A DNA stretch of 47,931 nt, taken from an uncultured Selenomonadales bacterium. Lineage in GTDB: Bacteria > Bacillota > Negativicutes > Selenomonadales > Selenomonadaceae. This document shows positions 15,081-39,752 of this stretch, piece after piece; position 1 is the first letter of the stretch, and the number at the start of each line of letters is the position of its first letter. The position numbers were made by a program, and so were the translations under genes. Below the pieces are notes generated by a model, which worked only from the letters and a program-made list of their open reading frames with translations, was not told the DNA's origin and did not search any database. The DNA is taken from the NCBI GenBank assembly GCA_947304355.1, contig CAMZAX010000019.1:1-47931 (forward strand). Reading direction: 5' to 3'.

Positions 15081-18000
15081 ATGAGTGATGAACTTGTCCC
15101 TTGTCCCTTGTCCCTTGTCCCTAACTTCACGCATTTGCACGTTCACACCGAATACAGTTTGCTCGACGGCGCGGCGCGAATCGGCGACCTGCTCGACGCG
15201 GCAAAAAATTTCGGCATGACTTCCCTCGCGATAACCGACCACGGCACAATGTACGGCGTCGTCGATTTTTACAAGGCTGCTCAAAAGCGCGGCGTCAAAC
15301 CGATTATCGGTTGCGAAGTCTACGTCGCGCCCGGCTCGCGCTTCGACCGAAAAGAAATCGACGGTACAAAATATTTTCATCTTATCCTGCTCGCCGAAAA
15401 CAACACGGGCTACAAAAATCTCGTCAAGCTGGCGTCGCTGGCGGGCACCGAAGGTTTTTACTATCGTCCGCGTGTCGACAAGGCAATCCTGCGCGAACAT
15501 CACGACGGGCTTATCGCGTTGAGTGCTTGCGTCGCCGGCGAAATCCCGCGTGCAATTCTCGAAGACGACGACCTTGACCGCGCCCGCAAACTCGTCGACG
15601 AATACGTTAAAATTTTCGGGCGGGACAATTTTTTTCTGGAGATACAAAACCACGGGCTCGAAGACGAAAAAAAAGTTCGCGCCGCGCTGAAAATTCTTTC
15701 CGCCGAATTGAATATCCCGCTCGTCGCAACAAACGATTCGCATTACGTCCGCCGCGAAGATTCGGAATTTCATGACCTGTTGCTTTGCATTCAGACGGGC
15801 AAGACGCTCAAAAGCGACAAGCGGCTAAAATTTTCTTCCGACGATTATTATTTGAAGTCGCCCGCCGAAATGCGTGCGCTGTTCGCCGAAGAGCCCGAAG
15901 CTTGCGACAACACGCTGAAGATCGCCGAACGTTGCAACGTGACGCTCGAATTCGGCAAATTTCAAATGCCCGAATTCCCTTTGCCCGAAGGAAAGACCGA
16001 CGCCGATTATCTGCGCGGGCTGTGCAATGAAAAACTTCCCGCCCGATACGAAACCGTCACTGACGAAATCAAAGCGCGGCTCGCTTACGAATTGGACGTT
16101 ATTCACGGCATGGGCTACGACGGCTACTTTCTTATCGTTTGGGACTTCATAAACTTCGCGCGACAAAACGGCATCCCCGTCGGACCGGGGCGCGGCTCGG
16201 CGGCGGGTAGTCTCGTCGCCTACGTCCTGGGAATCACCGAACTCGACCCGCTGAAATACAATCTGCTGTTTGAACGCTTCCTCAATCCCGAACGCGTTAC
16301 GTTGCCCGATATCGACGTTGACTTGTGCTACATTCGCCGCGAAGAAGTTATCGAATACGTTCGGCGACGCTACGGCGCGGATAAGGTTGCGCAAATCGCG
16401 ACGTTCGGCACGTTGGCGGCAAAGGCTTCGATTCGCGACGTTGCCCGCGTGCTCGACCTGTCCTACACCGAAAGTTCGCGCATCGTCAAGTTCATTCCCA
16501 ACACGCTGAATATCACGCTCGACGACGCGTTGAAGACTTCCAACGACTTCCGCACCGAATACGACACGAACGACAAAACGCGACGGGTTGTCGACTTCGC
16601 ACGGAAATTGGAAGGCTTGCCGCGTAATCTGTCTGTGCACGCGGCGGGCGTCGTCATATCACGGGAGCCGCTCGACGAAATCGTTCCTTTGCAAATCTCA
16701 AGCAAAACCGATGAGGCGGCGTCAAACAAGGTAAAGGTTACGCAATACGACAAAGACAAAGTCGAAGAACTCGGATTGCTGAAAATGGACTTCCTCGGCT
16801 TGCGCACGCTGACGATTATGGCGGAGACGTTCAAGAATATCAAAGCGTCACGCGGTTTGACGTTGACGGCGGAGCAAATCCCGTTGCGCGACGCGAAGAC
16901 TGCGGCAATGTTGACGGCTGGCAAGACAAGCGGCGTCTTCCAAATGGAATCGACGGGCATGACGGCGTTGGTTAAAGAGTTGCGCCCCGAAGGCTTTGAA
17001 GACTTAATCCCGACGGTTGCGCTGTATCGTCCGGGGCCGCTCGGTTCGGGCATGGTTGAAGACTTCATTGCGGGCAGGCACGGACGCAGGACGCCGAAAT
17101 ATTTGCACCCGAAACTTGAGCCGATACTTAAAGAGACGTTCGGCGTGATTTTGTATCAGGAACAGGTCATGCAAATCGTGCGGACGCTGGCGGGCTTCAC
17201 GCTCGGTCAAGCCGACATCTTGCGGCGCGCGATGGGCAAGAAGAAAGCTTCCATCCTCCTCGAACAAAAAGAAAACTTCCTGCGCGGCTGTGAAGTCAAC
17301 GGCGTCCAAAAATCCTTGGCGGAAAAAATTTTCGACCTGCTCAGCAAATTCGCGGATTACGGCTTCAACAAGTCGCACTCGGCGGCATACGGCTTGCTTG
17401 CCTGGCAGACGGCGTACCTTAAAGCGCACTACCCCGCCGAATACCTTGCGGCGATGATGTCCGGCACGCCCGACATTGACAAGGTTGCCGGCTACATTGA
17501 GCAGGCGCGGCGCATGGGTATAAAAATTCTTGCCCCCGACGTGAACGCGGGCGACGCCAATTTTACTGTTGAGGGCGGCGCAATTCGATTCGGCTTGGCG
17601 GCCGTCAAGACTGTGAGCGAAACCGTTGCCAACGGCATTGTCGCCGAACGCGCTGTCAACGGGCAATTCAAGTCGCCGACAGATTTTTGCGGGCGGCTCG
17701 ACGTTAAGGCTGTTCCGCGTCGCAGTTTGGAGAACTTGATTAAATGCGGAGCGTTCGACAGCATTGAACAGCGGCGGGCGGCTCTGCTTGCGTCGCTCGA
17801 TTCGATTATGGCGGCGGGCTACAAACACCTTCGCGAAAAGCGCGGCGGCGTTATAAATCTTTTCGACGATGACGACCTGCAAGATACGACCTTTCCGCTC
17901 CCTGAAGTCGACGATTCGCCGCAACAATTTTTTACGTGGGAAAAAGAGACGCTCGGCTTTTATTTGTCGGGGCACCCGCTCGACGCTTGGCGCGAAAAAT

Positions 18001-18509
18001 TTTCACGGCTCACGTCAAGCAACGATGTCAACGACGGCAAGTTTTTGGGCAAACGCGTATCCGTCGGCGGGATTATCACGAATGCGCGGCGCGTCACTAC
18101 CAAACGCGGCGACACGATGGCTTTCCTCACACTTGAGGACTTCGACGGCGCGATTGACGTTACGCTATTCCCGAACGTTTTTTACACCACGGTAAAAGTT
18201 GCTCAGCTCGACGAAATTGTCGTGGTGAAAGGGCGCGTCGAACAAAACGGCGACACATTCCAACTTGTGGCGAACTCTGTCACGGCGGCTAAAGATTACG
18301 TGCCCGACTTCTGTTTAACGATTCCCGCGCAGATTGACAACGCCGCCACGTTTGATAAACTTAAGCGAATTTTCTCGGCTCACGCCGGCGATATTCAAGT
18401 TTTACTCAATAAAGACGGTAAGGGGAGAAAACTTCCGATAAAAATTTCGGGCGACGCGTTCGACGAACTCAAAGCTTTGCTCGGCGACGACAACGTCCGA
18501 ATGTATTAA
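15081..18509 (+). CDS. dnaE: DNA polymerase III subunit alpha
   Basis: A 1142-residue replicative C-family polymerase. The N-terminal PHP domain starts FTHLHVHTEYSLLDGAAR, the polymerase core carries GPGRGSAAGSLVAYVLGIT and LPDIDVDLCY with the catalytic aspartates, and a helix-hairpin-helix and OB-fold region follow near the C terminus. I start it at ATG 15081, behind GAGGAGGG. Oddly, residues 5-14 (LVPCPLSLVP) are encoded by four tandem TTGTCCC heptamers that sit between the start codon and the conserved PHP start. A 7-base gain or loss there would shift the frame, so the array is a potential on/off or start-choice site in an essential gene. The array is shared with intergenic repeats elsewhere in the window. 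Confidence 0.96.
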   Translation: MSDELVPCPLSLVPNFTHLHVHTEYSLLDGAARIGDLLDAAKNFGMTSLAITDHGTMYGVVDFYKAAQKRGVKPIIGCEVYVAPGSRFDRKEIDGTKYFHLILLAENNTGYKNLVKLASLAGTEGFYYRPRVDKAILREHHDGLIALSACVAGEIPRAILEDDDLDRARKLVDEYVKIFGRDNFFLEIQNHGLEDEKKVRAALKILSAELNIPLVATNDSHYVRREDSEFHDLLLCIQTGKTLKSDKRLKFSSDDYYLKSPAEMRALFAEEPEACDNTLKIAERCNVTLEFGKFQMPEFPLPEGKTDADYLRGLCNEKLPARYETVTDEIKARLAYELDVIHGMGYDGYFLIVWDFINFARQNGIPVGPGRGSAAGSLVAYVLGITELDPLKYNLLFERFLNPERVTLPDIDVDLCYIRREEVIEYVRRRYGADKVAQIATFGTLAAKASIRDVARVLDLSYTESSRIVKFIPNTLNITLDDALKTSNDFRTEYDTNDKTRRVVDFARKLEGLPRNLSVHAAGVVISREPLDEIVPLQISSKTDEAASNKVKVTQYDKDKVEELGLLKMDFLGLRTLTIMAETFKNIKASRGLTLTAEQIPLRDAKTAAMLTAGKTSGVFQMESTGMTALVKELRPEGFEDLIPTVALYRPGPLGSGMVEDFIAGRHGRRTPKYLHPKLEPILKETFGVILYQEQVMQIVRTLAGFTLGQADILRRAMGKKKASILLEQKENFLRGCEVNGVQKSLAEKIFDLLSKFADYGFNKSHSAAYGLLAWQTAYLKAHYPAEYLAAMMSGTPDIDKVAGYIEQARRMGIKILAPDVNAGDANFTVEGGAIRFGLAAVKTVSETVANGIVAERAVNGQFKSPTDFCGRLDVKAVPRRSLENLIKCGAFDSIEQRRAALLASLDSIMAAGYKHLREKRGGVINLFDDDDLQDTTFPLPEVDDSPQQFFTWEKETLGFYLSGHPLDAWREKFSRLTSSNDVNDGKFLGKRVSVGGIITNARRVTTKRGDTMAFLTLEDFDGAIDVTLFPNVFYTTVKVAQLDEIVVVKGRVEQNGDTFQLVANSVTAAKDYVPDFCLTIPAQIDNAATFDKLKRIFSAHAGDIQVLLNKDGKGRKLPIKISGDAFDELKALLGDDNVRMY
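15094..15121 (+). repeat. Heptamer array inside dnaE
   Basis: Four perfect tandem copies of TTGTCCC, read in frame as part of the N terminus of dnaE. Member of the heptamer family found at seven other places here. Confidence 0.95.
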
Positions 18510-18570
18510 GGGACAAGGGAGCAGGGACAAGGGACAAGTAAAAAAACTTACCCTTGCCCCCTTGTCCCCG
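18510..18570 (+). repeat. Inverted heptamer array between dnaE and dacF
   Basis: GGGACAA-type units (18510-18538) run into a short A-rich loop and then TTGTCCC/TTGCCCC-type units (18547-18570). The two arms can form an imperfect stem of about 20 bp. It starts directly after the dnaE stop and ends about 5 bases before the dacF ribosome-binding site, so it could attenuate or stabilise the mRNA. It lacks a T tract. Confidence 0.85.
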
Positions 18571-18588
18571 ACCAAAGGAGCGATGTTT

Positions 18589-19869
18589 TTGAACGTGAAA
18601 AAATTTTTGGCGGCGATAACGATACTGACGCTGATAATTGCGGGCGCGGAAGCTGCTCCCGAAGGACGAATGCCCGCCTCCGAACTCATGCGGCTCGACG
18701 AGGCACCCAAAGGCGAAATAGCCCGCCCAATGCAAACGTTGACAAGCGAAAATTCGGGGCTCAATCCCGGCTACTCCGTCACGCCTATTCAAAACACGCG
18801 ACCTGTTGCGCCCGAAGACCCTCTGCCAAACGTCACGGCGACGGCGGCTATCGTTATCGAAGCGTCGACGGGACACGTCCTTTACGAACGCAACGCCGAT
18901 CAGCGCATGTTCCCCGCCAGCACGACAAAGATGATGACGCTTATCACCGCGCTTGAAGGCAATAAACTCGACGAAATTGTTACTGTCGGGCCGGGTGCTT
19001 ACAACGCGGAGGGCTCGACGCTGTGGCTCGACGTTGGCGAAAAAATTCCGTTGGGCGATTTGCTTTACGGCATGATGTTGATAAGCGGCAACGACGGTGC
19101 GATTGCCATTGCCGAACACTGCGGCGGCACCGTTGCCGACTTCGCCGCCCGCATGACAGCCCGCGCTCACGAACTCGGTGCGGTCTCCACTAACTTCACC
19201 AACGCCAACGGTTTGCCCGACTCAAACCACTACACCACGGCTCGCGACTTGGCGACGATGGCGGCTTACGGTTTCACGCTCCCGCACTTTGAAGAGATTT
19301 GCTCGGCGAAGGAAGTTTCGTTCGGTTGGATTCACGACGACACGAAACTTTTGCGCAACGAAAACCAAATGCTGTGGCTCTATCGCGGCGCGAACGGAGT
19401 CAAGACGGGCTACACCGACGCGGCGGGACGTTGCCTCGTGACGGCGGCAAAGCAAAACGGCGTTCAACTTATAGCGGTCGTGCTCGACAGTCTGTATATC
19501 TGGAACGATACAATTTTCCTGCTCGATTACGGCTTCGGGCGCGTGTCCAGTCAAAAGTTGATTCAGCCCGGCGACGTTGTCAAGACTTTGCCGATAACCT
19601 CCGGGCGGCGCAAGTCCATGCAAGTCAAAACTGCGGGCGAAATAATCATGCCGGTCTTTGAGGGCGACGACAACGCTTATAACATTGTTTACGACTTGCC
19701 GGAATTTTTGACTGCGCCGATAAAAAGCGGCGAGACAATCGGCAAGATACGCGTGGTGTTGCCCAACGGCAAGGAGGCGGCCTCTGTCGATGTGGTGACG
19801 ACGGCGGACGTTGAGCAGAAATCTTTTTTCCGTTTGGTACTGAATAAAATTCGCGGCTTCTTCGCGTGA
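18589..19869 (+). CDS. dacF: D-alanyl-D-alanine carboxypeptidase (DacF/PBP5-like)
   Basis: A 426-residue exported low-molecular-weight penicillin-binding protein (peptidase S11). It trims the terminal D-Ala from peptidoglycan stem peptides. After a signal peptide (MNVKKFLAAITIL), the active-site motifs are in order: SxxK in PASTTKMM (Ser111, Lys114), SGN at 166-168 and KTG at 272-274 in NGVKTGYTD. A C-terminal PBP5-type beta domain follows. I start it at TTG 18589 with GGAG eight bases upstream; the ATG at 18583 is only two bases from that site. No C-terminal membrane helix is obvious beyond the amphipathic end FFRLVLNKIRGFFA, which fits membrane attachment. Confidence 0.9.
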   Translation: MNVKKFLAAITILTLIIAGAEAAPEGRMPASELMRLDEAPKGEIARPMQTLTSENSGLNPGYSVTPIQNTRPVAPEDPLPNVTATAAIVIEASTGHVLYERNADQRMFPASTTKMMTLITALEGNKLDEIVTVGPGAYNAEGSTLWLDVGEKIPLGDLLYGMMLISGNDGAIAIAEHCGGTVADFAARMTARAHELGAVSTNFTNANGLPDSNHYTTARDLATMAAYGFTLPHFEEICSAKEVSFGWIHDDTKLLRNENQMLWLYRGANGVKTGYTDAAGRCLVTAAKQNGVQLIAVVLDSLYIWNDTIFLLDYGFGRVSSQKLIQPGDVVKTLPITSGRRKSMQVKTAGEIIMPVFEGDDNAYNIVYDLPEFLTAPIKSGETIGKIRVVLPNGKEAASVDVVTTADVEQKSFFRLVLNKIRGFFA

Positions 19870-19886
19870 CAAAGGAGACTTTTAAC

Positions 19887-20294
19887 ATGAGCGACAGAAT
19901 TACATTGGCGGACGAACTTCACCGCAAAGGTTACAGTTGCGCGCAATCGGTGGCGGTTGCCTGCGCGGACTTGGTTGACGTCCCGAAAGAAACGCTGTTC
20001 AAGGCGGCTGAAGGCTTCGGCGCGGGCATGGGCACTATGGACGGCGTGTGCGGCGCGTTGACGGGCGGCTTGCTTATCGCGGGCTTGAAGAACAGCACCG
20101 GCAACCTCGACAACCCCAAATCGAAGGCGTCGACGATGAAAATTTCCAAAGCGATGCTTACGAGTTTCCGCGACAAATGCGGCGCACTTATCTGCCGCGA
20201 ACTTAAAGGCGTCGACACGGGCAAGATGATTTGTTCCTGCCCCGACTGTATCAAACACGGCGTCGAAGTCGTCGAAGAGAACCTGGCACGATGA
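19887..20294 (+). CDS. C_GCAxxG_C_C family protein
   Basis: A 135-residue protein of the C_GCAxxG_C_C family (redox-active or metal-binding, function not established). Its cysteines are in GYSCAQSVAVAC (Cys18, Cys26), GVCGALTGG (Cys55), DKCGALICREL and a C-terminal CSCPDC. The pattern of N-terminal YxCAQ and central GxCGAxxGG is diagnostic. ATG 19887 has GGAG upstream. The stop overlaps the next start (ATGA at 20291-20294), so it is translationally coupled to the lipase. Confidence 0.88.
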   Translation: MSDRITLADELHRKGYSCAQSVAVACADLVDVPKETLFKAAEGFGAGMGTMDGVCGALTGGLLIAGLKNSTGNLDNPKSKASTMKISKAMLTSFRDKCGALICRELKGVDTGKMICSCPDCIKHGVEVVEENLAR

Positions 20295-21580
20295 AAAAAT
20301 TTTTTGCAGTCTTGTTGCTGTTGCTGAGCTTTATGAACGACGCGGCGGCGGGTCAGGTGTCAGGGGACAGGGAACAGGGGACAGAGGCGGAAATTCGTCT
20401 TGCGTGCGCGATTTGCTCCATGGGTGCTTACAGCGACGACGCAAGTTATCTCATGCGTTCGGAGTTGGCGGCTCGCGGCTGGCAGATTGAAAAGATTTCG
20501 CGCAAGAACAATCGCGCCGACGCGAAGGCTTACCTCGTCGGCAAGGGCAACGTGATGATTTTGGCGATTGCGGGCACCGAAAGCCTTAAAGATGTCGAAG
20601 TCAATTTCCGAATCGGGCGCGTGCAACTCAACGGCAACACCGCGCTTGACGCCGACGAAAAACATTCGGGCGACAAACTTTTCGTGCACCGTGGCTTTCG
20701 CGATTATGCAGACGTTGTGTTGGGCGACGGGCTTGCCGAACGCTTGAAGACTGCCCTTGCGCAAAATTCCCGCGCGACGCTTTACTTGACGGGACACAGC
20801 TTGGGCGGCTCCGTGGCGACGGTCGCGGCGATTCGCCTGAACGATATGGGCGTCCCAAAATCGCAGCTCAAAGTTATCAGCTTCGGCGCACCGGCGATCG
20901 GCTCTCGCGCATTGGCAGCGGCTTACAAGGACAAGCTTGACGTGACCCGCGTCGTCATGAAAGGCGACGTCGTGAAAAAATCTTTGCGCGTGTTGGGTTA
21001 CGTTCAGTTCGGCAAGGCGTTGGAGTATCGACCGAGCGCAACGAGCGATCACCTTGAACACAAGATGGCGGTCTACCTTGACAGCACGATTCGCGATTAC
21101 ATTAAAGCGGGCGGCTCCTTCCGCCACGACGCGCCCGACAAAATCAACACGCCGATTTACGTCGCGCCGGTGTTGCTTGTCGATAACAGCCTGCACAAGA
21201 CGGACAGGGAACTGACTCTTAACGCGCTCAACGACAGCCTTGCGAACAATTTCGGCAACGTGACAATCGCGAACGAGCTGAGCGTCAAGATTGACGCCGA
21301 CGACGTTTTGGACGCGGACTTCGACGAATATGTATCCGCCGCCAAAAATCTGCGTTGCAAGTACGTGTTGATTCGCATCCTCAACGCAAAAAAAATTCGC
21401 GACGCGCAGTCGGGCGACAAACTCGTCACGTTGGAGGAAATTATTTTAGACACGAACGGCGTCCCGTTGTCCATGCAGACGGCGGGCGCGTCGACGAAGG
21501 ATCTTACGATTTTCGAGGCGACGCTTGCCGCGCAGGCGACGCTTACCGAACGATTACGAAATTTTTTTACGGACAAATAA
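20291..21580 (+). CDS. Exported class 3 lipase-like hydrolase
   Basis: A 429-residue protein with a signal peptide (MKKFFAVLLLLLSFMNDAAA). The alpha/beta hydrolase has the class 3 lipase nucleophile elbow LTGHSLGGS with Ser170, preceded by VHRGFRDYAD; later strands carry ISFGAPAIGSRAL. The substrate cannot be told from sequence. The C-terminal 130 residues form a separate region with no domain I recognise. Odd point: residues 22-32 (QVSGDREQGTE), just after the signal peptide, are encoded by a CAGGGGACAGGGAACAG-type heptamer array, so repeat DNA has been recruited into the linker. Its end overlaps the convergent hisS by 14 bases. Confidence 0.8.
   Translation: MKKFFAVLLLLLSFMNDAAAGQVSGDREQGTEAEIRLACAICSMGAYSDDASYLMRSELAARGWQIEKISRKNNRADAKAYLVGKGNVMILAIAGTESLKDVEVNFRIGRVQLNGNTALDADEKHSGDKLFVHRGFRDYADVVLGDGLAERLKTALAQNSRATLYLTGHSLGGSVATVAAIRLNDMGVPKSQLKVISFGAPAIGSRALAAAYKDKLDVTRVVMKGDVVKKSLRVLGYVQFGKALEYRPSATSDHLEHKMAVYLDSTIRDYIKAGGSFRHDAPDKINTPIYVAPVLLVDNSLHKTDRELTLNALNDSLANNFGNVTIANELSVKIDADDVLDADFDEYVSAAKNLRCKYVLIRILNAKKIRDAQSGDKLVTLEEIILDTNGVPLSMQTAGASTKDLTIFEATLAAQATLTERLRNFFTDK
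20361..20384 (+). repeat. Heptamer array variant inside the lipase gene
   Basis: Three units of the type GGGGACA / GGGAACA, read in frame right after the signal peptide. A variant of the GGGACAA family. Confidence 0.75.
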
Positions 21581-22820: not shown

Positions 22821-22833
22821 ATTTCCAGCCTCC

Positions 22834-23607: not shown

Positions 23608-23619
23608 GCGCGTCGCCTC

Positions 23620-24486: not shown

Positions 24487-24489
24487 TTG

Positions 24490-26707: not shown

Positions 26708-26736
26708 GGTTGAAGCCTCCTTCACGATTTGAACCG

Positions 26737-26765
26737 ATTATAGCAGTTATCGTCGAAAAGCACAA
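26737..26765 (-). promoter_or_regulatory. Promoter of the fur operon
   Basis: Minus strand TTGTGC (26765-26760), a 17-base spacer and TATAAT (26742-26737). No clear Fur-box palindrome is seen over it. Confidence 0.6.
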
Positions 26766-26771
26766 AAAAAA

Positions 26772-26818
26772 CTTATCCCTGCCCCCTAACCCCTTGTCCC
26801 TTGTCCCTTGTCCCTTAA
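26772..26818 (+). repeat. Heptamer array between fur and the 26869 gene
   Basis: Degenerate and then perfect TTGTCCC units (perfect copies at 26794, 26801 and 26808) in one orientation. One copy lies exactly where the -35 box of the rightward promoter is expected. Confidence 0.9.
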
Positions 26819-26829
26819 CTTGTTATAAT
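26801..26829 (+). promoter_or_regulatory. Rightward promoter whose -35 lies in a heptamer copy
   Basis: TATAAT (26824-26829) with an extended TGT, and TTGTCC (26801-26806) 17 bases upstream. The -35 is the start of a TTGTCCC repeat unit. It would drive the 26869 gene and perhaps the purine cluster. Confidence 0.6.
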
Positions 26830-29118: not shown

Positions 29119-29130
29119 GGGGATAAAAAT

Positions 29131-29933
29131 TTGAAACTCACAATGCTCGGCACAGGCAACGCACTCGTCACGGAGTGTTACAACACTTGCTTCGTGATAA
29201 GCGACGGCGACAAAAATTTTTTGGTTGACGGCGGCGGCGGCAGCGGCATTCTCCGTCAGCTTAAGCACGCCGGCTTTGACTGGAAAGACATGCGCGAATT
29301 TTTTTTGACGCACAAACACATCAACCATTTTACGGGCGTCTTGTGGCTCGTCCGCATGATTTGCCAATACATGAATCAGCGCGAATACGACGGCACCGCC
29401 AAGATTTACAGGTACGCCGAAGTTTTGCGACAGCTTGAAGACATCGCCAAAACGCTCCTTCAGCCGAAAGAGACGCGCTTTATCGGCGACCGACTTTTTT
29501 TCGTGCCCGTTGCCGACGGCGAAGTTGTGAACGTTATCGGACGTGCGACGACGTTCTTTGACATTCGCTCGACCAAAACGAAACAATTCGGCTTTGCAAT
29601 GGACATCGGCGGCGCGCAAAAGTTGACGTGTTGCGGCGACGAACCCTGCAACGACTTCGGAAAGCCCTACGCCGAAAATGCCGCGTGGCTGTTGCACGAG
29701 GCGTTCTGCCTTTATTCGCAAGCCGACATCTTCTCGACCCCTACGGCAAGAATCATTCGACGGTTAAGGACGCCTGCGAACTTGCCGAGGCTCTTCACGT
29801 CAAAAATCTGTTGCTGTATCACACCGAAGACAAAAACCTTGCCGCACGGAAGAAACTCTACTGCGCGGAGGGACAAAAATATTTCAGCGGGACAATTCAT
29901 GTGCCCGACGATTTGGAAACGTTGGCACTTTGA
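29131..29933 (+). pseudogene. Frameshifted MBL-fold metallo-hydrolase
   Basis: A metallo-beta-lactamase-fold protein of the RNase Z-like type starts at TTG 29131 and reads well to about 29732 (MLGTGNALVTECYNTCF, metal motif THKHINHFTG in place of HxHxDH). After ADIF the frame is wrong; the expected continuation DPYGKNHSTVKDACELAE lies in another frame and ends at 29933 with VPDDLETLAL. Removing two bases (a repeated TC near 29733-29734, in TTCTCGACC) restores one 267-residue protein. It is either a recent two-base insertion or a sequence error. Left unrepaired, the first frame runs to 29940 with an unrelated tail. It sits between purB and purC. Confidence 0.8.
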
Positions 29934-29952
29934 AGTTTAAGGAGGTTTTATC

Positions 29953-30660: not shown

Positions 30661-30683
30661 TAAACATACGGCAACACGGTCAT

Positions 30684-30740
30684 TGGGGACTTGGGACCGG
30701 GACTAGATTTTTGAACTTGTCCCTTCTCCCTTGTCCCTTT
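30684..30740 (+). repeat. Inverted heptamer array between purC and the GT17 gene
   Basis: Degenerate GGGACTT/GGGACCG units, a TTTTTGAACTTG centre, then TTGTCCC/TTCTCCC units. The centre TTTTGAACTTGTCCCTT is shared with the copy at 32631-32700. Confidence 0.85.
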
Positions 30741-30760
30741 AAATTTGCGAGGTGATTCGT

Positions 30761-31682: not shown

Positions 31683-31698
31683 ACAGGAGCTGACGTTT

Positions 31699-32631: not shown

Positions 32632-32700
32632 GGGAGAAGGGACAGGGCGAAGGGACAAGAGTTTTGAACTTGTCCCTTGTCCCATACCCCTTGTCCCTTA
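32631..32700 (+). repeat. Inverted heptamer array between UXS gene and purM
   Basis: AGGGAGAAGGGACAGGGCGAAGGGACAA-type units, a GTTTTGAAC centre, then TTGTCCC units. The arms are complementary over about 15 bp. It starts on the stop codon of the upstream gene. Confidence 0.88.
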
Positions 32701-32727
32701 AAATCGACCGAAGGGAGATTTTTTCCT

Positions 32728-33744
32728 ATGACGTTGACTTACAAGGATTCGGGCGTGGACATCGACGCGGGCAACGAGTCCGTGCGCCTGATTAAAGATT
32801 TTGTCCGCGCGACGTATCGCCCCGAAGTTTTGGGCGACTTGGGCGGCTTCGGCGGTCTGTTCGCGCTCAAACACTACGACGAGCCGATTTTGGTTTCGGG
32901 TACAGACGGCGTCGGCACAAAGCTCAAAATCGCGTTCATGCTCAACAAGCACGACACAATCGGGCAGGACGCCGTTGCCATGTGCGTCAATGACATTTTG
33001 GTTCAAGGTGCCGAGCCGCTGTTTTTTTTGGACTACTTGGCTGTCGGCAAGCTTATGCCCGCGCAGGTTGCCGAGATCGTTCGCGGCGTCGCCAACGCGT
33101 GCAAGGAATCGGGTTGCGCGCTTATCGGCGGCGAGACGGCTGAAATGAGCGGCTTCTATTCGGACGGCGAGTATGACATTGCGGGCTTTGCTGTCGGCGT
33201 CGTCGAACTTAAACACTTGATAACGCCTGCGCGGGTCAAAATCGGCGACGTGCTTATCGGCTTGCCGTCGAGCGGCTTGCATTCCAACGGCTTCAGCTTG
33301 GTGCGGAAAATCGTCTTCGAGCGCATGAAGTTCACGGGCGCGGAGCAAATCGACGGGCTTGACAAAACTTTGGGCGAGGAGCTTTTGACGCCGACGAGGC
33401 TTTATCCCGCGACGGTCTTGTCGCTTATCCGAGAGTACGGCGAAAAAATTCACGGGCTTGTTCACGTGACGGGTGGCGGCTTCTACGACAACATCCCCCG
33501 CGCTTTGCCCGCCGGCTTGGGCGCGACGATTGACGCCGATTCTTGGCAAGTCCCGAAGATTTTCAAGCTGCTCAAGGAGTGGGGCAACGTCGAGCGGCGC
33601 GAGATGTTCCGAACGTTCAACTGCGGCATTGGCATGATTCTGATTGTCGACGCGGGCATTGCCGACAGCTTGGCGGGCTACAAAATCGGTCGTGTTGTCG
33701 AAGGCGCGGGCGTCACGATTAACGGAGGTGAATTCAAAGACTAA
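32728..33744 (+). CDS. purM: Phosphoribosylformylglycinamidine cyclo-ligase (AIR synthetase)
   Basis: A 338-residue ATP-dependent enzyme of the PurM/PurL fold. [13 protein letters not shown] at the N terminus, [31 protein letters not shown] and GGETAEM are the defining blocks; [13 protein letters not shown] lies near the C terminus. I start it at ATG 32728 behind AAGGGAG; an upstream in-frame ATG lies within the heptamer array. The C-terminal GGEFKD end overlaps a GAGGTGAATTCAA word that recurs at the purN stub. Confidence 0.95.
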
Positions 33745-33970
33745 GCACATAAAAATTTTTAGGAAGGAGATAAATTATGAGCTTCTCAACGAAGGTTTTA
33801 ATTGCGGCATTTATTATTGGATGTATATCTGGTAATGAAACGATAGGCATGATATGCATACTTGTAATGTTTGTTATATTTATTGCTGCAGCTGTAAGCA
33901 ATACATTAGAAGAAATCGGATGGGATGATGACGATAACAATAGTGGCGGCGGCGAATGAGGTGAATTCAA
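33725..33970 (+). repeat. 13-bp direct repeats flanking a small AT-rich insert
   Basis: GAGGTGAATTCAA occurs at 33725-33737 (end of purM) and 33958-33970 (before the purN stub), with a near copy GAGGTGTATTCAA at the ribosome-binding site of the intact purN gene. The DNA between the two exact copies, holding the 33777 gene, is clearly richer in A and T than both neighbours. Confidence 0.7.
33777..33959 (+). CDS. Small two-helix membrane protein
   Basis: A 60-residue protein with two adjoining hydrophobic stretches (roughly residues 6-20 and 24-43) and an acidic, glycine-rich tail (DDDDNNSGGGE). ATG 33777 has a good AAGGAG site preceded by AAAAATTTTT. Codon and base use differ strongly from the purine genes around it: many A/T-ending codons. 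Together with the flanking direct repeats this suggests a transferred insert. Function unknown; a toxin-like or bacteriocin-type peptide is possible but nothing in the sequence proves it. Confidence 0.6.
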   Translation: MSFSTKVLIAAFIIGCISGNETIGMICILVMFVIFIAAAVSNTLEEIGWDDDDNNSGGGE

Positions 33971-34056
33971 TGATTAAACTTGGCGCGCTGTGTTCGGGAC
34001 GCGGCAGCAACGTGACGTTGCATCCAATGGTCGCGCCTCAACATTGCACCGATTAA
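33970..34056 (+). pseudogene. Truncated copy of the purN 5' end
   Basis: A 28-codon frame starts MIKLGALCSGRGSN and then diverges to a stop. The first 14 codons nearly repeat the start of the intact gene at 34126. This stub keeps GSN, the usual PurN phosphate-loop residues, where the intact gene has GTD. It is a remnant of a duplication or replacement at the purM-purN junction. The following 60 bases contain an imperfect palindrome around CGCATGCG. Confidence 0.75.
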
Positions 34057-34125
34057 GCCAACCGCCCGCGCTTATACGCAACGCATGCGCATTGCTAGCT
34101 TCGTAATTTTAGGGAGGTGTATTCA

Positions 34126-35313
34126 ATGATTAAACTTGGCGTGCTGTGTTCGGGACGCGGCACAGATTTGCAGTCGATAATCGACGCGACGGCGAGCGGC
34201 TACCTTGCGGCGAAAGTTTCAATCGTCTTGACCGACAAGCCGAACGTCGGAGCTTTGGCGCGTGCCGAGGCGGCGGGTATTAAAAATATTTGCGTCGACA
34301 GAAAAAATTTCGCGAGCCGCGCGGATTTCGAGGCTGAACTGTTGCGGCACCTTAAAGGCGTCGACTTGGTTATCTTGGCGGGCTTCATGCGGATTTTGAG
34401 CGCGGACTTCGTTCGTCGCTACGAAGGGCGGCTGATGAATATTCACCCGTCGCTTTTGCCCGCGTTCCCCGGCGCGCACGCTCACCGCGACGTTTTGGCT
34501 TACGGCGCGAAGGTTTCGGGTTGCACTGTTCATTTCGTCGACGAGGGCACCGATACCGGACCGATTATCATGCAGGCGGCGGTTGAAGTCTTGGAGGACG
34601 ACACCGAAGAAACTTTGGCGGCGCGTGTCTTGGAGCAGGAGCACAAGATTTATCCGCAGGCGATTAAGCTTTTCATTGACGGGCGTCTGAAAATCGTCGG
34701 GCGCAGAGTTGAGATTGGAGGCGGCAAAATGAAAATCAAACGGGCATTAATCAGCGTGTCGAACAAAATCGACGTGGTGGACTTCGCGAAGAAACTCAGC
34801 AAGTGCGGCGTCGAGATAATCAGCACGGGCGGCACCGGCAAGGCGATTCGGGCAGCGGGCATTCCCGTCACCTACGTCAGCGATTTGACGGGCTTCCCCG
34901 AAATCATGAACGGGCGCGTCAAGACTCTCAACCCGAAAATCCACGGCGGCATCTTGGCTGTGCGCGACAATCCCGAACACGTCAAGCAGATGGCGGAAAA
35001 CGGTATCGAGCCGATTGATTTGGTCGTCGTCAACCTGTACCCGTTCAAGAAGACGATTCGCAAGCCGAACGTGACGCTGGAGGACGCGATTGAAAATATC
35101 GACATCGGCGGCCCCGCAATGATTCGGGCGGCGGCGAAGAACTTCAAATACGTGACGGTCGTTACAAACCCCGAACGCTACGACGAAATCGCCGCGCTGA
35201 TTAAAGAGCTTGGCGAAATCCCGCTTGACATCCGCAAGACGCTCGCGGCGGAAGCGTTCGCTCATACCGCTGACTACGACGCCGCGATAACGAAATATCT
35301 GTCCGAAGTCTGA
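34126..35313 (+). CDS. Fusion of GAR transformylase (PurN) and IMP cyclohydrolase (PurH N-domain)
   Basis: A 395-residue protein with two purine enzymes. Residues 1-195 are Pur[16 protein letters not shown], catalytic Asn105 and His107 in NIHPSLLP, and Asp143 in DEGTDTGP. Residues 202-395 are the IMP cyclohydrolase (MGS-fold) half of Pur[43 protein letters not shown] and [18 protein letters not shown]. The AICAR transformylase half of PurH is absent, so that step must be coded elsewhere. Within the fusion, GGAGG and ATG 34729 offer an internal start for a free cyclohydrolase, which suggests that two adjacent genes were joined by loss of the purN stop. ATG 34126 follows GGGAGG. Confidence 0.9.
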
Positions 35314-35333
35314 ATCGTTCGTTGCAATCTAAA

Positions 35334-35368
35334 AGCCTCTCGACGCGCGCCGAGGGGCTGTTTTATTT
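35334..35368 (+). terminator. Terminator of the purine cluster
   Basis: Stem AGCCTCTCG (35334-35342) with CGAGGGGCT (35351-35359), one wobble pair, followed by GTTTTATTTT. Confidence 0.8.
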
Positions 35369-35394
35369 TGCGCAAAAAAATATCGCCGACAAAA

Positions 35395-35958
35395 CTAATC
35401 TTGCTTGTCAGCGATTGTGTTGGCGGCTTCGACGAGGAGATTTTTCGCGATAGTCAAAGCTTTGTCGTCGTGTTCAAAGTTACAGGCTCTCGACAAGCTG
35501 TCGGCGAATTTCTCCAGAGCCCTGATGATTCTGCATGCTTCGTCGTATTCGATGCCGAAAAGTTCATTGCCGAGCGCATACGGCGCGAAGATTTCGTAGC
35601 AAACCTGTTCAAACAGGCGAGCAACTTTGCGCGGGAGCAAAACCGTTTTATAAAAATCTTTACGGTTCAAACCTTTGATTTGCGGCAAGCGTCCTTCCGG
35701 AGCGTGGCTGTGCCCGATTTTGACGACGTTGAAGTTGTCTTTCATGTGAGCAACGTAAACACTTGCGGGCGTGAATTGCCCGGCGACGCGTTTGGGATTT
35801 TTTGTCTTCGTGGGTTTGGCGACGACGGGCGCGACGGAATAGTAGCCGTGTTTGCGAATCGACGGCAGAACCTCGTGATAGACCCAACGCTGGAATTCAA
35901 GAGCTTCTTTTTTGCGGCCGCGAATGTACAATGTAAGTGCAACAAGTGAAAAACTCAT
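35395..35958 (-). pseudogene. Truncated Bro-N / GIY-YIG-like phage antirepressor
   Basis: A 187-residue frame. Residues 17-42 are the end of a Bro-N domain (EFQRWVYHEVLPSIRKHGYY); the first half of that domain is missing. Residues 66-155 resemble the T5orf172 GIY-YIG-like domain (VYVAHMKDNFNVVKIGHS and a later ELFGIEYDEACRII). The first residues (MSFSLVALTL) are coded by the end of the IS30-type remnant (35934-35958), so the gene was cut by that insertion and now starts inside it, without a clear ribosome-binding site. It is a prophage remnant; DNA composition is lower in GC than the neighbours. Confidence 0.75.
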
Positions 35959-36374
35959 AGTTTCCTGCTAAGATGTTTATAACTCAAAGAAAGCAGGGAG
36001 CACCATGAGTTACAATCATCTTAGCATAACGGAGCGCGAATTGATAGCGATTTATCGCGCTGAAGGAAAATCAATCTTCAAAATCGCTAAGCTACCGGGC
36101 AGACACAAGAAATGTCGCCCGAACAAATTGCCAATCGTCTCAAGCAAAAGGCTACGTTTCTAATCGCGGCAAAATCCCGATAAGTCACGAGTTATCGGAA
36201 AGACCTTTTGCGTCAAATGAGCGAATCCGACGTGGCGATTGGAAAGGTTACGACTTCACGAAACTCAGCGATGAAGACTTACAAAAAGTCGTTGACTTAA
36301 TCAATCACCGTCCCAGAAAATGTTTGAGTTATAGAACACCTGCTGAAGTTTACTTTTCAACGCTGTTGCACTTA
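35934..36374 (+). mobile_element. Internally deleted IS30-family element
   Basis: About 441 bp between inverted ends TAAGTGCAACA (35934-35944) and TGTTGCACTTA (36364-36374). ATG 36005 behind AGGGAG starts the IS30 helix-turn-helix part, MSYNHLSITERELIAIYRAE, which soon runs out of frame. MSPEQIANRLK (near 36112) comes from the middle of the transposase. A last fragment gives DFTKLSDEDLQKVVDLIN and HRPRKCLSYRTPAEVYF, stopping at 36380. Most of the DDE core is gone, so the copy is dead on its own but keeps both ends and could move if a full copy supplies transposase. Confidence 0.8.
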
Positions 36375-36388
36375 GCTTGACTATTCAA

Positions 36389-36455
36389 GGCACCCAAAGA
36401 AAAAGTAGCAAAAAGAAAGGGCACCGCCGCACGCAACATCCTGTTGCTGACGCGG
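36389..36455 (-). repeat. Dispersed hairpin repeat, copy 2
   Basis: The 29-bp hairpin core at 36427-36455 is identical, in reverse, to 5909-5937. The adjoining A/G-rich stretch mirrors the C/T-rich flank of copy 1. The rest of this gap, to 36514, is GC-rich DNA (GGCGGCGGCCGCC) in which I see no gene. Confidence 0.75.
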
Positions 36456-36514
36456 CGGCGGCCGCCGTCCGTGGCGGCCTCTGATTCGTTCGTGTGCACC
36501 TCAAGATTCGCGGC

Positions 36515-36543
36515 TTGCTTTTATCCCGCGTGCCATTTAAAAT
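36515..36543 (+). promoter_or_regulatory. Promoter of the YgbA-like gene
   Basis: TTGCTT (36515-36520), a 17-base spacer and TAAAAT (36538-36543), about 30 bases before the start codon. Confidence 0.5.
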
Positions 36544-36573
36544 GAATTAACTACACGCGAAAGGATTTTGAAC

Positions 36574-37077
36574 ATGGGAATATTCGACAAGGTGAAAGAC
36601 AAAGTCAAAAGCATCCTGCCCAAGCGCAAGGAGCCCGAACTCAAAAACACCGTCCCGAAGGAAAAGGAAACCATTCGCAAGACGTTCGGCGAATATTGCA
36701 ACGCGAATCACGGCACCGAAGGCGGCAAGCTCTGCGCCAAATGCACCGCCGTCCTGTCGACCGTCATGATAAAAATCAGCCGCTGCCCCTACGGTATCGG
36801 CAAGCCCATTTGCGAACAATGCGAAACTCCTTGCTTCGGCGAACGCTTTACCAACGAGTTCACGACAATCATGAAGGGCGGACAGAAAAAAATGTTGCTG
36901 TCCCACCCGATTATGGCGGTCAAGCACAAGCTCAAAGGTCTCGGCGCGGAATACGCCAAAATGCAACGCGACAAGAAATCGACCGACAAACAGAAGGAAG
37001 ACGCCGAAAAAGTCAAAGCCAAGTTCGCCAACGCAACTCGCTCGCCGAAAAAAGCCAAGAAGCGCAAGAAGAAGTAA
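36574..37077 (+). CDS. YgbA/nitrous-oxide-stimulated-promoter family protein
   Basis: A 167-residue protein matching the YgbA_NO family, known for nitric-oxide-inducible expression in E. coli but of unclear function. The cysteine pattern is complete: Cys42, CAKC (54 and 57), RCPYGIGKPICEQCETPC (71, 80, 83, 87), followed by the family end KMLLSHPIMAVKHKLKGLG. It probably binds a metal or Fe-S cluster. The last 45 residues are lysine-rich and look disordered, an addition relative to YgbA. I start it at ATG 36574, with AAGGA eight bases upstream. It is monocistronic, ending at a heptamer array and terminator. Confidence 0.82.
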   Translation: MGIFDKVKDKVKSILPKRKEPELKNTVPKEKETIRKTFGEYCNANHGTEGGKLCAKCTAVLSTVMIKISRCPYGIGKPICEQCETPCFGERFTNEFTTIMKGGQKKMLLSHPIMAVKHKLKGLGAEYAKMQRDKKSTDKQKEDAEKVKAKFANATRSPKKAKKRKKK

Positions 37078-37099
37078 GGGACAAGGGACAAGGGACAAG
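37078..37099 (+). repeat. Heptamer array after the YgbA-like gene
   Basis: Three perfect GGGACAA copies plus one base, starting on the base after the stop codon and ending just before the terminator. Confidence 0.92.
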
Positions 37100-37104
37100 A
37101 AAAA

Positions 37105-37131
37105 AGCGGGTGTCGTACCCGCTAAATTTTT
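37105..37131. terminator. Shared terminator between ygbA-like gene and thiD
   Basis: Stem AGCGGGT (37105-37111) with ACCCGCT (37117-37123), followed on the plus strand by AAATTTTTTT and on the minus strand by TTTTTTCTTG, so it can serve both converging genes. Confidence 0.82.
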
Positions 37132-37132
37132 T

Positions 37133-37930
37133 TCAGTCGTTGAAGTCGACGCCGCGCAGATTGTAGCCGTGGTCAAGCGGACCGTTGCCTTTGCCGAGTT
37201 CAAGACCGCTCATCAGCGCGCCCGTCAAGTAAGCCTTTGCACGCCCGACGGAAGTTTTCAAGTCATAACCCTTCGCAAGGTTGGCGGCAATCGCCGAGCT
37301 CAACGTGCAACCCGTGCCGTGCGTGTTCTTCGTGTCGACGCGTTGACCGTGAAACCATTCGCCCGCGCCGTCGTAAAGATAATCGTTGGCGTCGCTGAAT
37401 CCGTGTCCGCCCTTCGCCAACACGGCGCAACCGTATTCGTCGTGAAGAATCTGCGCGGCACTTTCCATGTCAGCCGGCGTGGAAAATTTTTTTTGCGTTA
37501 TCGCCTCAAGTTCGGGCAAGTTTGGCGTGACAACCGTCGCCAACGGAAACAGTTCGGCTTGCAGAGTTTTAACGGCGTCCGCGTCAATCAGTCGCGCGCC
37601 CGAAGTCGCAATCATCACCGGGTCGACGACGATGTTTTTCGCCGCACGGAAGCGCAACTTCGCCGCAATGATTTTTATCAGCTCCGCCGAAGACACCATG
37701 CCGATTTTCACGGCGTCGGGCTCAATGTCCTCAAAAATCGCGTCGAGTTGGTCAGCCAAAAATTCAGCCGTCGTGTTGCGCACCGAACGCACTCCGCACG
37801 TATTTTGCGCCGTCAAAGCCGTTATCGCGCTCATGCCGTAGACGCCGTTCGCCAAAAAAGTTTTCAGGTCGGCTTGAATGCCCGCGCCGCCCGAACTGTC
37901 CGAACCTGCAATCGTCAATGCAGTTTTCAT
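37133..37930 (-). CDS. thiD: Hydroxymethylpyrimidine (phosphate) kinase
   Basis: A 265-residue ribokinase-fold enzyme of thiamine synthesis that phosphorylates HMP and HMP-P. The start ALTIAGSDSSGGAGIQADLKTF and the GTGCTLSSAIAANLAKG anion hole are diagnostic. GAGG lies before ATG 37930, overlapping the end of proS. It is the last gene of the AAA-proS-thiD run. Confidence 0.93.
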   Translation of the reverse strand: MKTALTIAGSDSSGGAGIQADLKTFLANGVYGMSAITALTAQNTCGVRSVRNTTAEFLADQLDAIFEDIEPDAVKIGMVSSAELIKIIAAKLRFRAAKNIVVDPVMIATSGARLIDADAVKTLQAELFPLATVVTPNLPELEAITQKKFSTPADMESAAQILHDEYGCAVLAKGGHGFSDANDYLYDGAGEWFHGQRVDTKNTHGTGCTLSSAIAANLAKGYDLKTSVGRAKAYLTGALMSGLELGKGNGPLDHGYNLRGVDFND

Positions 37931-39646
37931 TTACAAAGTCCTCAAGAGTTCCAAAATTTTTTCAACGCACTCGTCGCGCCCGAAGTTCAAGAATTCGCCG
38001 CTGCGCCGCACTTTGACTTCGACGTTGCCGCCGGCAAGAGTCTTCGGGCTTATCGTCACGCGCAACGGGTAGCCAATGAGGTCGCAATCTTTGAACTTGA
38101 CGCCCGCGCGTTCAAATCTGTCGTCAAGCAGAGCGTCGACGCCCGCCGATATCAGCTCGGCGTAAATTTTTTTGGCAAAAGTAAGTTGTGCATCGTCCTT
38201 GGCATTGACGGGCACGACGACGACTTCAAACGGCGCGATAGCCCTCGGCCAAATGATTCCGTCCGCGTCGTTGTTCTGTTCGATAGCCGCCGCCATCGTC
38301 CGCCCGACGCCGATACCGTAACAGCCCATCTCGAACGGTTTGACTTTGCCGTCTTCGTCAAGGAAGGTCGCGTGCAACGACTCCGAATATTTTCTGCCGA
38401 GAGTGAAGACTTGTCCGACTTCAATGCCGCGTGTCATCTTCAACGGCGCGCCGCAATGCGGGCAGGGGTCGCCGACTTGCACCATGCGAATATCGGCGAC
38501 GATAATTTTTTTCGCGTCGAAGTCTCTGCGCGGCGTCACGTTGACAAAATGCGCGTCAACCTCGTTGGCACCGGCGACGGCGTTTGACATCATCATTACG
38601 CTTTGGTCGACGACGACAATCGCGCGGTCGTTCAAGCCAATCGGGCTCATGAAACCCGCGACGCTGCCCGCCGCCGTAATCAGCTTGTCGCCCGCCATGT
38701 AAAGATGATTCGCGCCCTCGACGGCGTTGATAACCTTGATCTCGTTGACTTCGTGGTCGCCGCGCACGAACGCAACAATCAGCCGCTCGTCGTCGTCCAT
38801 GAACGCAACCGCCTTAATCGTCTTTTCAATCGGCACGCCCAAAAAATTTTTGACAAGCTCAATCGTGTGACAATCGGGCGTCAAAACTTTTTTCAGCGGG
38901 CGCAGTTCTTCGGGCTCGGCTTGAATAAGTTTAAGCTCGGCCTTTTCGTCGCTCGCCGCGTAGTCGCACGCTTCGCAATAAGCAATGGACGATTCGCCGC
39001 TTGGAGCCAAGACCGTGAACTCGTGGGAATGCCCGCCGCCGATTGCGCCGTTGTCCGCCTCGACTGCGCGGAACTGCAAACCGCAACGTTTAAAGACGCG
39101 GCTGTAGGCGTCGTACATTTTTTCGTAGGAAATGTTCATGCCGTTTACGTCGCGGTCGAAGGAATACAAATCCTTCATGACGAATTCGCGGCTGCGCATG
39201 AGACCGAAGCGCGGGCGAATCTCGTCGCGATATTTGTTTTGGATTTGATACAGCATGAGCGGCAGTTGTTTATAGGAGCGCACCTCGTCGCGAATCAGCG
39301 TCGTAATCATTTCTTCATGCGTCGGACCGAGCGCGAACTCTCTGCCGTGACGGTCTTTAAGGCGCATCATTTCGTCGCCATAAACTGCCCAGCGTCCGGA
39401 TTCCTGCCACATTTCGGCGGGCTGAACGATCGGCATCATGATTTCCTGACCGCCCTTGGCGTCCATTTCCTCGCGAATGATTTGCATGATTTTTTTCATG
39501 GTGCGCCAACCGAGCGGCAGATAGGAATAGAGACCACCCGCCGCCTTGCGAATGAGACCGGCGCGATACATCAGCTTGTGACTGACAAGTTCGGCTTCTG
39601 CGGGCGACTCGCGGAGGGTCGGCGCGTAAAGTTGTGTTGCTTTCAA
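37931..39646 (-). CDS. proS: Prolyl-tRNA synthetase
   Basis: A 571-residue bacterial-type ProRS charging tRNA-Pro. It contains the N-terminal TLRESPAEAELVSHKLMYRAGLIR, class II motifs (PRFGLMRSREFVMKDLYSF, and ESLHATFLDE with GCYGIGVGRTMAA), and the YbaK-like editing insertion in the middle. I start it at TTG 39646, with GAGG eight bases upstream, giving the usual MKATQLYAPTLRE; GTG 39655 lies in the ribosome-binding site. The stop abuts thiD. Confidence 0.95.
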   Translation of the reverse strand: MKATQLYAPTLRESPAEAELVSHKLMYRAGLIRKAAGGLYSYLPLGWRTMKKIMQIIREEMDAKGGQEIMMPIVQPAEMWQESGRWAVYGDEMMRLKDRHGREFALGPTHEEMITTLIRDEVRSYKQLPLMLYQIQNKYRDEIRPRFGLMRSREFVMKDLYSFDRDVNGMNISYEKMYDAYSRVFKRCGLQFRAVEADNGAIGGGHSHEFTVLAPSGESSIAYCEACDYAASDEKAELKLIQAEPEELRPLKKVLTPDCHTIELVKNFLGVPIEKTIKAVAFMDDDERLIVAFVRGDHEVNEIKVINAVEGANHLYMAGDKLITAAGSVAGFMSPIGLNDRAIVVVDQSVMMMSNAVAGANEVDAHFVNVTPRRDFDAKKIIVADIRMVQVGDPCPHCGAPLKMTRGIEVGQVFTLGRKYSESLHATFLDEDGKVKPFEMGCYGIGVGRTMAAAIEQNNDADGIIWPRAIAPFEVVVVPVNAKDDAQLTFAKKIYAELISAGVDALLDDRFERAGVKFKDCDLIGYPLRVTISPKTLAGGNVEVKVRRSGEFLNFGRDECVEKILELLRTL

Positions 39647-39675
39647 AATGTTCACCTCAGAAAAATTTTATTTCA

Positions 39676-39752
39676 AGGGGAAAGGGACAAGGGATAAGGG
39701 ACAAGTTAAAAATCAAATCTCTTGTCCCTTGTCCCATGTTCCTTGTCCCTTA
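39676..39752 (+). repeat. Inverted heptamer array reaching into the AAA ATPase gene
   Basis: GGGACAA/GGGATAA units (39676-39704), an AT-rich centre, then TTGTCCC-type units (39721-39750). The arms are complementary over about 20 bp. The right part codes for the last residues of the minus-strand AAA gene. Confidence 0.9.

Follow-up and report, generated by a model that had tools for sequence, protein, structure and literature searches.

Dispersed heptamer arrays in an uncultured Selenomonadaceae bacterium as a candidate family of small inserted elements

Tandem heptamer repeats dispersed between genes occur in cyanobacteria, where they are termed short tandemly repeated repetitive (STRR) sequences. 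Heptameric repeats have also been described in Xanthomonas (GGGAATC) and Nostoc (GGGGA(C/T)T), and the sections of that account used here report, for two xanthomonads, 186 and 183 arrays, 70 and 75 facing inverted pairs, four units as the commonest size, and mostly extragenic positions (Rehm et al., 2015; PMC4692102). The published account of heptameric repeats, as far as it is drawn on here, links the four units to G-quadruplexes. Here we describe arrays of the heptamer TTGTCCC/GGGACAA in a 47,931-nucleotide stretch (hereafter the window; contig CAMZAX010000019.1 of assembly GCA_947304355.1) from an uncultured Selenomonadales bacterium of the rumen, of the family Selenomonadaceae, together with their counterparts in the rest of the source genome and in its genus. 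The arrays differ between relatives at orthologous sites, and we tentatively regard them, with slightly less than even confidence, as a family of small non-autonomous inserted elements copied from existing arrays and carried as near-neutral passengers. In our reading, the family belongs to the genus rather than to a single species.

A sequence-only reading of the window had placed the heptamer family at eight loci. The unit TTGTCCC/GGGACAA was seen at seven of them, and the eighth (20361-20384) is a variant without an exact unit. Near-dimers of TTGTCCC (TTGTCCCTTGTCCC, at most one mismatch) number 14 in the window against 0.02 expected from 100 shuffles. The genome-wide count of tandems against composition that the same reading had proposed gave 101 + 80 = 181 exact dimers in the source genome (2.41 Mb, 66 contigs, 88% complete) and none for the reversed-pattern control, and the repeat-array observation is thus confirmed. 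Exact dimers were also found, 1-19 each, in 8 of 59 same-genus genomes, while six other same-genus genomes carry the reversed string, which is effectively another heptamer, TGTTCCC. Among 398 genomes drawn from the phylum, exact trimers occurred in two, the source genome and one other with a single array. The best named dnaE matches were Selenomonadaceae metagenome bins from deer and goat (72 and 76% identity over the best segment), which fits the assignment to Negativicutes made from the sequence alone. In a genome sample of 445,931 bp, which includes the window and was picked partly around array hits, period 7 is prominent, with 84 arrays versus 17 for periods 5, 6, 8-11, and 13 combined. 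Perfect runs in this sample numbered 56 at period 7 (3 after shuffling), none at periods 4, 5, 8, 10, 11, and 13, and 7 or 8 each at periods 6, 9, 12, and 15; the 43 at period 14 are in many cases visibly compound heptads. A pair of units at 29870, which lie 19 bases apart in coding sequence and are not in tandem, was left out of the later counts. No Rfam family matched the window at the gathering score, and a tRNA scan of the window found nothing.

The arrays resemble the Xanthomonas and Nostoc repeats, so far as the latter are covered by the sections used, in their GGG-starting heptads and in the many dispersed arrays. They share with Xanthomonas the prevalence of four units (here 36 of 66 halves, a half being a single array) and the facing pairs (here 34 running from a G-rich to a C-rich arm among 45 adjacent pairs). 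Thus, heptads, four units, and inverted pairs are already described (PMC4692102), and the proposal that the hairpin form had not been described can hold at most for this lineage. In contrast to the xanthomonads, a strand preference at the ends of open reading frames (ORFs) is not clear here, and array positions, mostly conserved there, are not conserved here, although the relatives compared here may be more distant. Many intragenic copies, several heptad families including some without GG, one median length, and a common core further separate the present arrays from those of Xanthomonas and Nostoc. The TAACTGA repeats of Beggiatoaceae, cyanobacteria, and Bacteroidetes are likewise tandem heptamers dispersed between genes. 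In the passages covered, they comprise one unit sequence, the main genome having 169 direct sets and one indirect set, most of them a short way upstream of start codons, and a paired form with a core is not reported there (PMC4679880). A search of openly licensed papers for heptamer or small dispersed repeats and for tandem repeats in Selenomonadaceae retrieved no description in this lineage, and a text search of such papers for six repeat strings retrieved one unrelated paper. We regard as new the absence of arrays at orthologous sites, the turnover of units at a single site, the common core, and the independence of the four-unit length from G-runs.

In what follows, genomes of the genus are denoted by G numbers and sampled loci by L numbers. 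Of 21 array sites of the source genome compared with relatives, three lacked alignable flanks, and all of the remaining 18 were without a detected array in at least one relative. An array was present in some relative at eight of the 18 sites, giving 10 occupied site-genome pairs, and the consensus unit differed in nine of these, in three of the nine (G010, GGGACTA) by one base only. Two of the sites, in L128, lie in neighbouring related genes, and one G040 array may serve both; the G040 array at the L128 site continues into a TTATCCC/TTGTCCC arm. When all heptad families were considered, tight flanks were found in another genome for 40 of the 140 array loci; of these, 32 were empty in at least one genome and 25 were occupied in at least one, and the relative in some comparisons had longer unrelated sequence in place of the array. 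At nine empty tight-flank loci the gap was 12 bases or less, one of the nine retaining a single unit and another being a core element of G050 compared with G040. The clearest cases are two facing pairs of the window and one site in L128. At 18510, between the dnaE stop codon and the next gene, the gap is -2 in G010 and G031, which read TATTAAGGAGAG without the 65-base insert, and at 32632, the junction of an epimerase gene and purM, the gap is -11 to -13 in G040, G043, and G059. At L128 10849, 4 bases are left in G010. The sequence-only reading had raised mobility as one possibility and had proposed the comparison of intergenic gaps; mobility is supported, in that the arrays are missing at orthologous sites in relatives, some precisely, and a core sequence recurs at dispersed loci and in other species. 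Several intergenic inserts sit just upstream of a Shine-Dalgarno-like sequence, a position that may reflect target choice or merely a tolerated place. The arrays of the window are as follows.

15083-15093: core-like GAGTGATGAAC, preceding the dnaE array of 15094..15121
15094..15121, minus (the G-rich strand is on minus): solo four-unit array inside the dnaE reading frame, past the start region
18510..18568, unstranded: facing pair; left arm 18510-18537, AT-rich centre, right arm 18548-18568
20361..20384, plus: variant heptad array (GGGGACA/GGGAACA) that lacks an exact unit and lies in frame close to the N-terminus of a lipase-domain protein
26773..26814, minus: solo six-unit array, the inner-side units variant
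30684..30737, unstranded: facing pair; degenerate left arm 30684-30705, core GATTTTTGAAC 30706-30716, right arm 30717-30737
32632..32697, unstranded: facing pair; left arm 32632-32658, core GAGTTTTGAAC 32659-32669, right arm 32670-32697
37078..37098, plus: solo three-unit array between an adjoining stop codon and a terminator-like hairpin
39677..39749, unstranded: facing pair; left arm 39677-39704, centre 39705-39721, right arm 39722-39749

The facing orientations that had been noted at four arrays (those at 18510, 30684, 32632, and 39677) are real, the left arm at 30684 being degenerate, and so is the centre TTTTGAACTTGTCCCTT common to the pairs at 30684 and 32632, which recurs in the genome and the genus. 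The description of the family as mostly hairpin arrays is correct as to the hairpin forms at four of the eight arrays but not as to "mostly". Likewise, only three of the eight (18510, 32632, and 37078), and not most, begin within one or two bases of a stop codon, those at 15094 and 20361 being intragenic. The dnaE array contributes LVPCPLSLVP to DnaE, and G010, G031, and G055 have no array at this site. The pair at 18510, with left-arm units GGGACAA, GGGAGCA, GGGACAA, and GGGACAA, lies directly 3' of the dnaE stop codon and upstream of the Shine-Dalgarno sequence of a D-Ala-D-Ala carboxypeptidase-type gene. The pair at 32632, whose left arm is one base under four units, lies directly 3' of the stop codon of the epimerase/dehydratase-type gene and upstream of purM. 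None of eight relatives compared has an array at 20361. The array at 26773 is 48 bases upstream of the called start of a minus-strand Fur-family gene, and its site has alignable flanks in no relative. The pair at 30684 is about 24 bases past purC, a site at which relatives hold about 400 bases of other sequence, and G010 holds about 320 bases of other sequence and no array at 37078. At 39677, G031, G033, and G055 are without an array and have about 37 other bases, while G010 has a four-unit solo arm in the matching left flank. Two other repeats were found in the window. The stretch 35904-36425 is a broken multi-copy sequence that matches many contig ends in G055 and G056 and other places in G010, with another copy in L122 of the source genome; it resembles the remains of an IS30-type transposase. 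The other, at 34007-34104, is a dispersed repeat about 98 bp long, of which G010 has additional copies.

The half-element is an array of about 31 bp, AA(GGGACAA)4G. Among the 66 halves with at least two units in the genome sample, 36 have four units, with 8 of two, 8 of three, 9 of five, and 5 of more. The base preceding the first unit is A in all 36 four-unit halves (the next one out is A in 24), and the base 3' of the fourth unit is G in 34. Counted from the outer side, GGGACAA occupies units 1, 3, and 4 in 30, 29, and 30 of these halves and unit 2 in 15 (chi-square, p 5e-5). Other GG families show a weaker likeness, with departures from the consensus in 24 of 45 at unit 2 and in 11, 17, and 20 at units 1, 3, and 4. 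The heptads used across genomes of the genus include GGGACTA, GGAGTTA, GGATTTA, ACGCATT, GGAACTA, and AGCTNNN. No heptads were seen in samples of 11-42 kb each from G055, G031, G033, G046, G054, G024, G051, G003, and G048; outside those samples, G051 has 25 TGTTCCC-type dimers and G024 has one TTGTCCC dimer. The samples are non-random, their stretches having been picked for synteny with the source genome or for array hits, and the array-bearing status of G050, G015, and G016 is based on 20 kb each. Arrays of heptads were also noted in one Phascolarctobacterium bin and one Actinomycetota bin (L038 and L047, among 80 named loci). The median array length is 31 bases whether the longest G-run is 1, 2, or 3 (n = 33, 65, and 66, respectively). 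Thus, the published link between four units and G-quadruplexes is unlikely to be the general cause of the four-unit length.

Halves occur solo or as facing pairs in which the G-rich arm precedes the C-rich arm, many arrays being single arms. Among the 45 pairs of adjacent arrays no more than 40 bp apart, 34 run G-rich then C-rich, four run in reverse, and seven are otherwise arranged. Of the four in reverse, two are located between consecutive G-to-C pairs, one comes after such a pair, and one involves a chance period in coding sequence. The consensus units of the two arms in the 34 G-to-C pairs are identical in 9, one base apart in 10, and at least two bases apart in 15. The predicted folding of all 34 pairs is -24.4 versus -19.2 with the right arms swapped (sd 1.8), a gain that is due to the inclusion of same-unit pairs; for the 25 pairs without identical units, it is -20.1 versus -18.4 (sd 1.5), a slight gain. 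Whole-element shuffles fold at -9.9, and same-unit pairs give strong predicted hairpins, down to -50 kcal/mol. In addition, the sequence of unit 2 is never common to both arms in the seven pairs of the source genome in which both are readable. Polarity is therefore kept more strictly than complementarity. The hairpin interpretation of the arrays is only partly correct, given the many single arms and the 15 pairs with clearly different units. Pairs of the GGAGTTA family (L118 7509, L119 3550, and L144 18782) have a longer AT-rich centre that is alike in the source genome and G050 and is perhaps a second core.

A subset of the pairs carries the core GNGTTTTGAAC, which seven other species have in combination with other units. 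When the genus was searched for GAGTTTTGAACTTGTCCC (at most two mismatches), the source genome gave 14 matches and the control none, and the sum over all 66 genomes was 69 versus 12 for the reversed control. Thirty loci from the 69 matches were examined, of which 11 lie in heptad pairs and 19 in ordinary sequence. A scan of the sampled loci (at most three mismatches) gave 21 core elements; one, L191, is a chance match, which leaves 20 in eight genomes, namely 9 in the source genome and 11 in the seven others. The units around the core include GGGACAA, GGGACTA, GGGAAAT, and GGGAGAA. Because the core served as the search query, its conservation within the set is partly built in, but its position between heptad arms elsewhere is not. 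Co-variation of the arms over the 21 elements gave p 0.003, the unit-loop positions alone p 0.06, and the source genome alone (n = 9) p 0.52. Because the signal is absent within the source genome, we take it as family-level likeness. Runs of GGGACAA/TTGTCCC without a paired element were also noted in the viral loci L234, L235, L236, and L237 (13, 9, 5, and 3 units, respectively). Carriage by viruses was rejected, since neither these four loci nor the 20 viral loci with an exact near-core show a paired element, and none of the 20 near-cores lies in an array.

The inverted pairs with a common core at dispersed loci and in other species, the empty sites in relatives, and the 19 of 34 pairs with an identical or nearly identical unit in both arms would also be expected if the facing pair were a miniature element moved in trans by a dedicated transposase, with solo arms as its remnants. 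Such a system is known from REPINs and their RAYT transposases, which, in the part of the account used, resemble the present arrays as small dispersed hairpin-forming facing pairs with solo copies (PMC3116915). Unlike REPINs, the arms here are heptad arrays, and 15 of the 34 pairs differ at two or more of the seven unit positions. Four-unit solo arms stand in reading frames, so that probably not all solos are remnants of pairs, and target duplication is not consistent. Y1 transposase was found in 7 of 66 genomes of the genus (6 over the cut-off), none of them among the array-bearing genomes sampled, and not in the source genome (88% complete). RAYT mobilisation was rejected for this lack of a Y1 gene in the source genome, and we consider a REPIN-like origin unlikely, though not negligibly so.

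Seventeen arrays in called ORFs were translated, and none has an internal stop, which is guaranteed by ORF calling and is no evidence by itself. Ten array-bearing proteins were searched in NCBIfam. Seven matched a family (valine-tRNA ligase, FolC, DnaE, PolC, copper-type P-ATPase, ribonuclease R, and MetH) and three did not, one of the three matching a glycosyltransferase family in Pfam. The array falls within the matched stretch in valS, folC, metH, and the P-type ATPase gene. In dnaE, polC, and the RNase R gene, it immediately precedes that stretch or lies further toward the N-terminus. Both replicative polymerase genes of the source genome, polC (L125 588-4049) and dnaE (window 15015-18509), carry an N-terminal heptad array. 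In-frame replacement is seen at several of these sites. Relatives have ordinary coding sequence at the place of the array in valS, folC, and two further genes. The valS site is occupied in G010 too, by about four units of GGGACTA/GGGACTG, but holds ordinary coding sequence in three relatives. The glycosyltransferase-like gene holds three different heptads at one place in the source genome, G043, and G056, and ordinary sequence of similar length in three other relatives. The Rickettsia palindromic elements are comparable as small mobile sequences in frame within metabolic and housekeeping genes; in the portion of the account considered they are palindromic and about 150 bp long (PMC10969869), while the well-intragenic copies here are single heptad arms of about 31 bp. 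Across all genomes sampled, the 25 arrays that lie 100 bases or more within a called gene are all solo, whereas 58 of 147 context rows at gene edges are paired (Fisher, 2e-5; an array may be counted twice among these rows). The context counts are from a simple codon-score gene caller with rough starts. Of the halves in the genome sample, 33 are in genes and 33 intergenic, a split that overstates in-gene copies near starts. Solo arrays at gene ends show no clear strand preference (before a start, C 26 and G 19; after a stop, C 24 and G 20), and in view of this and of the 25 mid-gene arrays, the suggestion that the arrays generally serve as 3' stabilisers is not supported.

One published proposal for heptameric repeats is that a heptamer present by chance grows in place as the polymerase slips by seven bases. 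The prominence of period 7 agrees with this, as do the lone units that G010 and G056 have at the RNase R and dnaE starts, respectively, both 21 bases shorter than the four-unit arrays here. Slippage of this kind would not readily explain why one unit recurs at many dispersed places in the source genome and at few or none in most relatives, and the clean paired inserts, the shared core, and the position-dependent variability of unit 2 also count against it. We therefore judge local slippage improbable as the origin of the arrays. A regulatory structure, that is, G-quadruplex or hairpin elements selected at gene ends as proposed for Xanthomonas, is a similarly improbable alternative. It would account for four GGG tracts at seven-base spacing, for the strong predicted hairpins of same-unit pairs, and for the lack of paired forms among the mid-gene arrays; however, the median length is unchanged in families without GG runs, the strand preference just described is not clear, array sites are not conserved, and arms of unlike units are barely better matched than swapped arms. 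We consider it least probable that heptads of the G-strand are added to broken 3' ends, by a telomerase-like or another activity, and the ends later joined: this would suit the G-strand 3' ends facing the junction in 34 of 38 opposed pairs, the arms of unlike units, the replacements and small deletions at sites, and a likeness to mammalian short interstitial telomeric repeats, which the sections used describe as short tandem arrays inserted where sister species have none, sometimes with small deletions or duplications, and with unmodified, deleted, added, and duplicated targets (PMC2246262), but those repeats are eukaryotic and telomerase-linked, no telomerase-type gene is shown here, RVT_1 was not found in array-bearing G010, G040, G056, G049, G050, G015, and G016, Ku was found in none of the 66 genomes of the genus, and the common core and variable unit 2 are unexpected from end addition.

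We return to the reading of the arrays as inserted, non-autonomous elements copied from existing arrays. The half form would be the 31-bp array given above, and the full form would be two facing halves, G-rich first, with an AT-rich centre, of about 60-90 bp, GNGTTTTGAAC marking one subfamily of the latter. In the mechanism that we consider most likely, a polymerase at a nick, gap, or stalled fork would switch onto an existing array and copy about four heptads, which would add to or replace sequence at the site. Seven-base slippage could afterwards homogenise or contract the units, and the copies left by selection would be those between stop codon and Shine-Dalgarno sequence, at linkers, and at the ends of proteins. 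In all probability, the elements are near-neutral passengers and not regulators. The 66 genomes of the genus that were searched for Y1 transposase, RVT_1, and Ku are 59-100% complete, so that single absences are weak and the joint absence is less so. RVT_1 occurs in 21 of the 66, including one in the source genome and two in G100, and the seven array-bearing genomes listed above for RVT_1 have no detected Y1 transposase either. A reverse-transcriptase origin was rejected, as RVT_1 does not track the arrays, and so was Ku end-joining for the absence of Ku.

Several observations weigh against this reading. The source copy was traced for no insertion, and sharing of unit-2 variants between neighbouring arrays, a test of local copying, was not significant (p 0.09-0.39). 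Some sites without an array (30684, 37078, and others) hold other sequence in the relative and are not clean empty sites. Target-site duplications, which are of fixed length in miniature inverted-repeat transposable elements (MITEs), are inconsistent here, with about 2-4 bp possible at 18510, a longer similarity at 32632, and none clear elsewhere. The relatives differ by 10-25% in DNA, and it is parsimony that favours gain over loss as the direction of change. The single units in G010 and G056 fit local slippage from a seed. Finally, the arms over all 34 pairs are more complementary than swapped arms, and 19 of the pairs have identical or one-base-different units, both as a hairpin unit predicts.

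A bolder interpretation is that an unrecognised insertion activity, being neither Y1 transposase nor Ku joining and operating in several array-bearing genomes that have no detectable reverse transcriptase, inserts runs of four heptads, about 31 bases long, into chromosomes with fixed polarity. It would draw on any one of several heptads that vary with the species, and would also alter housekeeping proteins in frame. The rule of four units and the facing pairs in distant phyla would then be the signature of this activity and not of a G-quadruplex function. We regard this as doubtful, yet worth stating.

Heptameric repeats have been noticed in several phyla, and slippage and G-quadruplexes are the guesses offered for them in the literature, as far as it is covered here. 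The present arrays bear on both, in that the median length is equal with and without G-runs and the polarity of pairs holds even for arms of unlike units. The genus offers related species with and without arrays at matching sites, so that gain, loss, and replacement can be followed. Small repeats that enter the replicative polymerases and an aminoacyl-tRNA synthetase in frame constitute a route to new protein segments.

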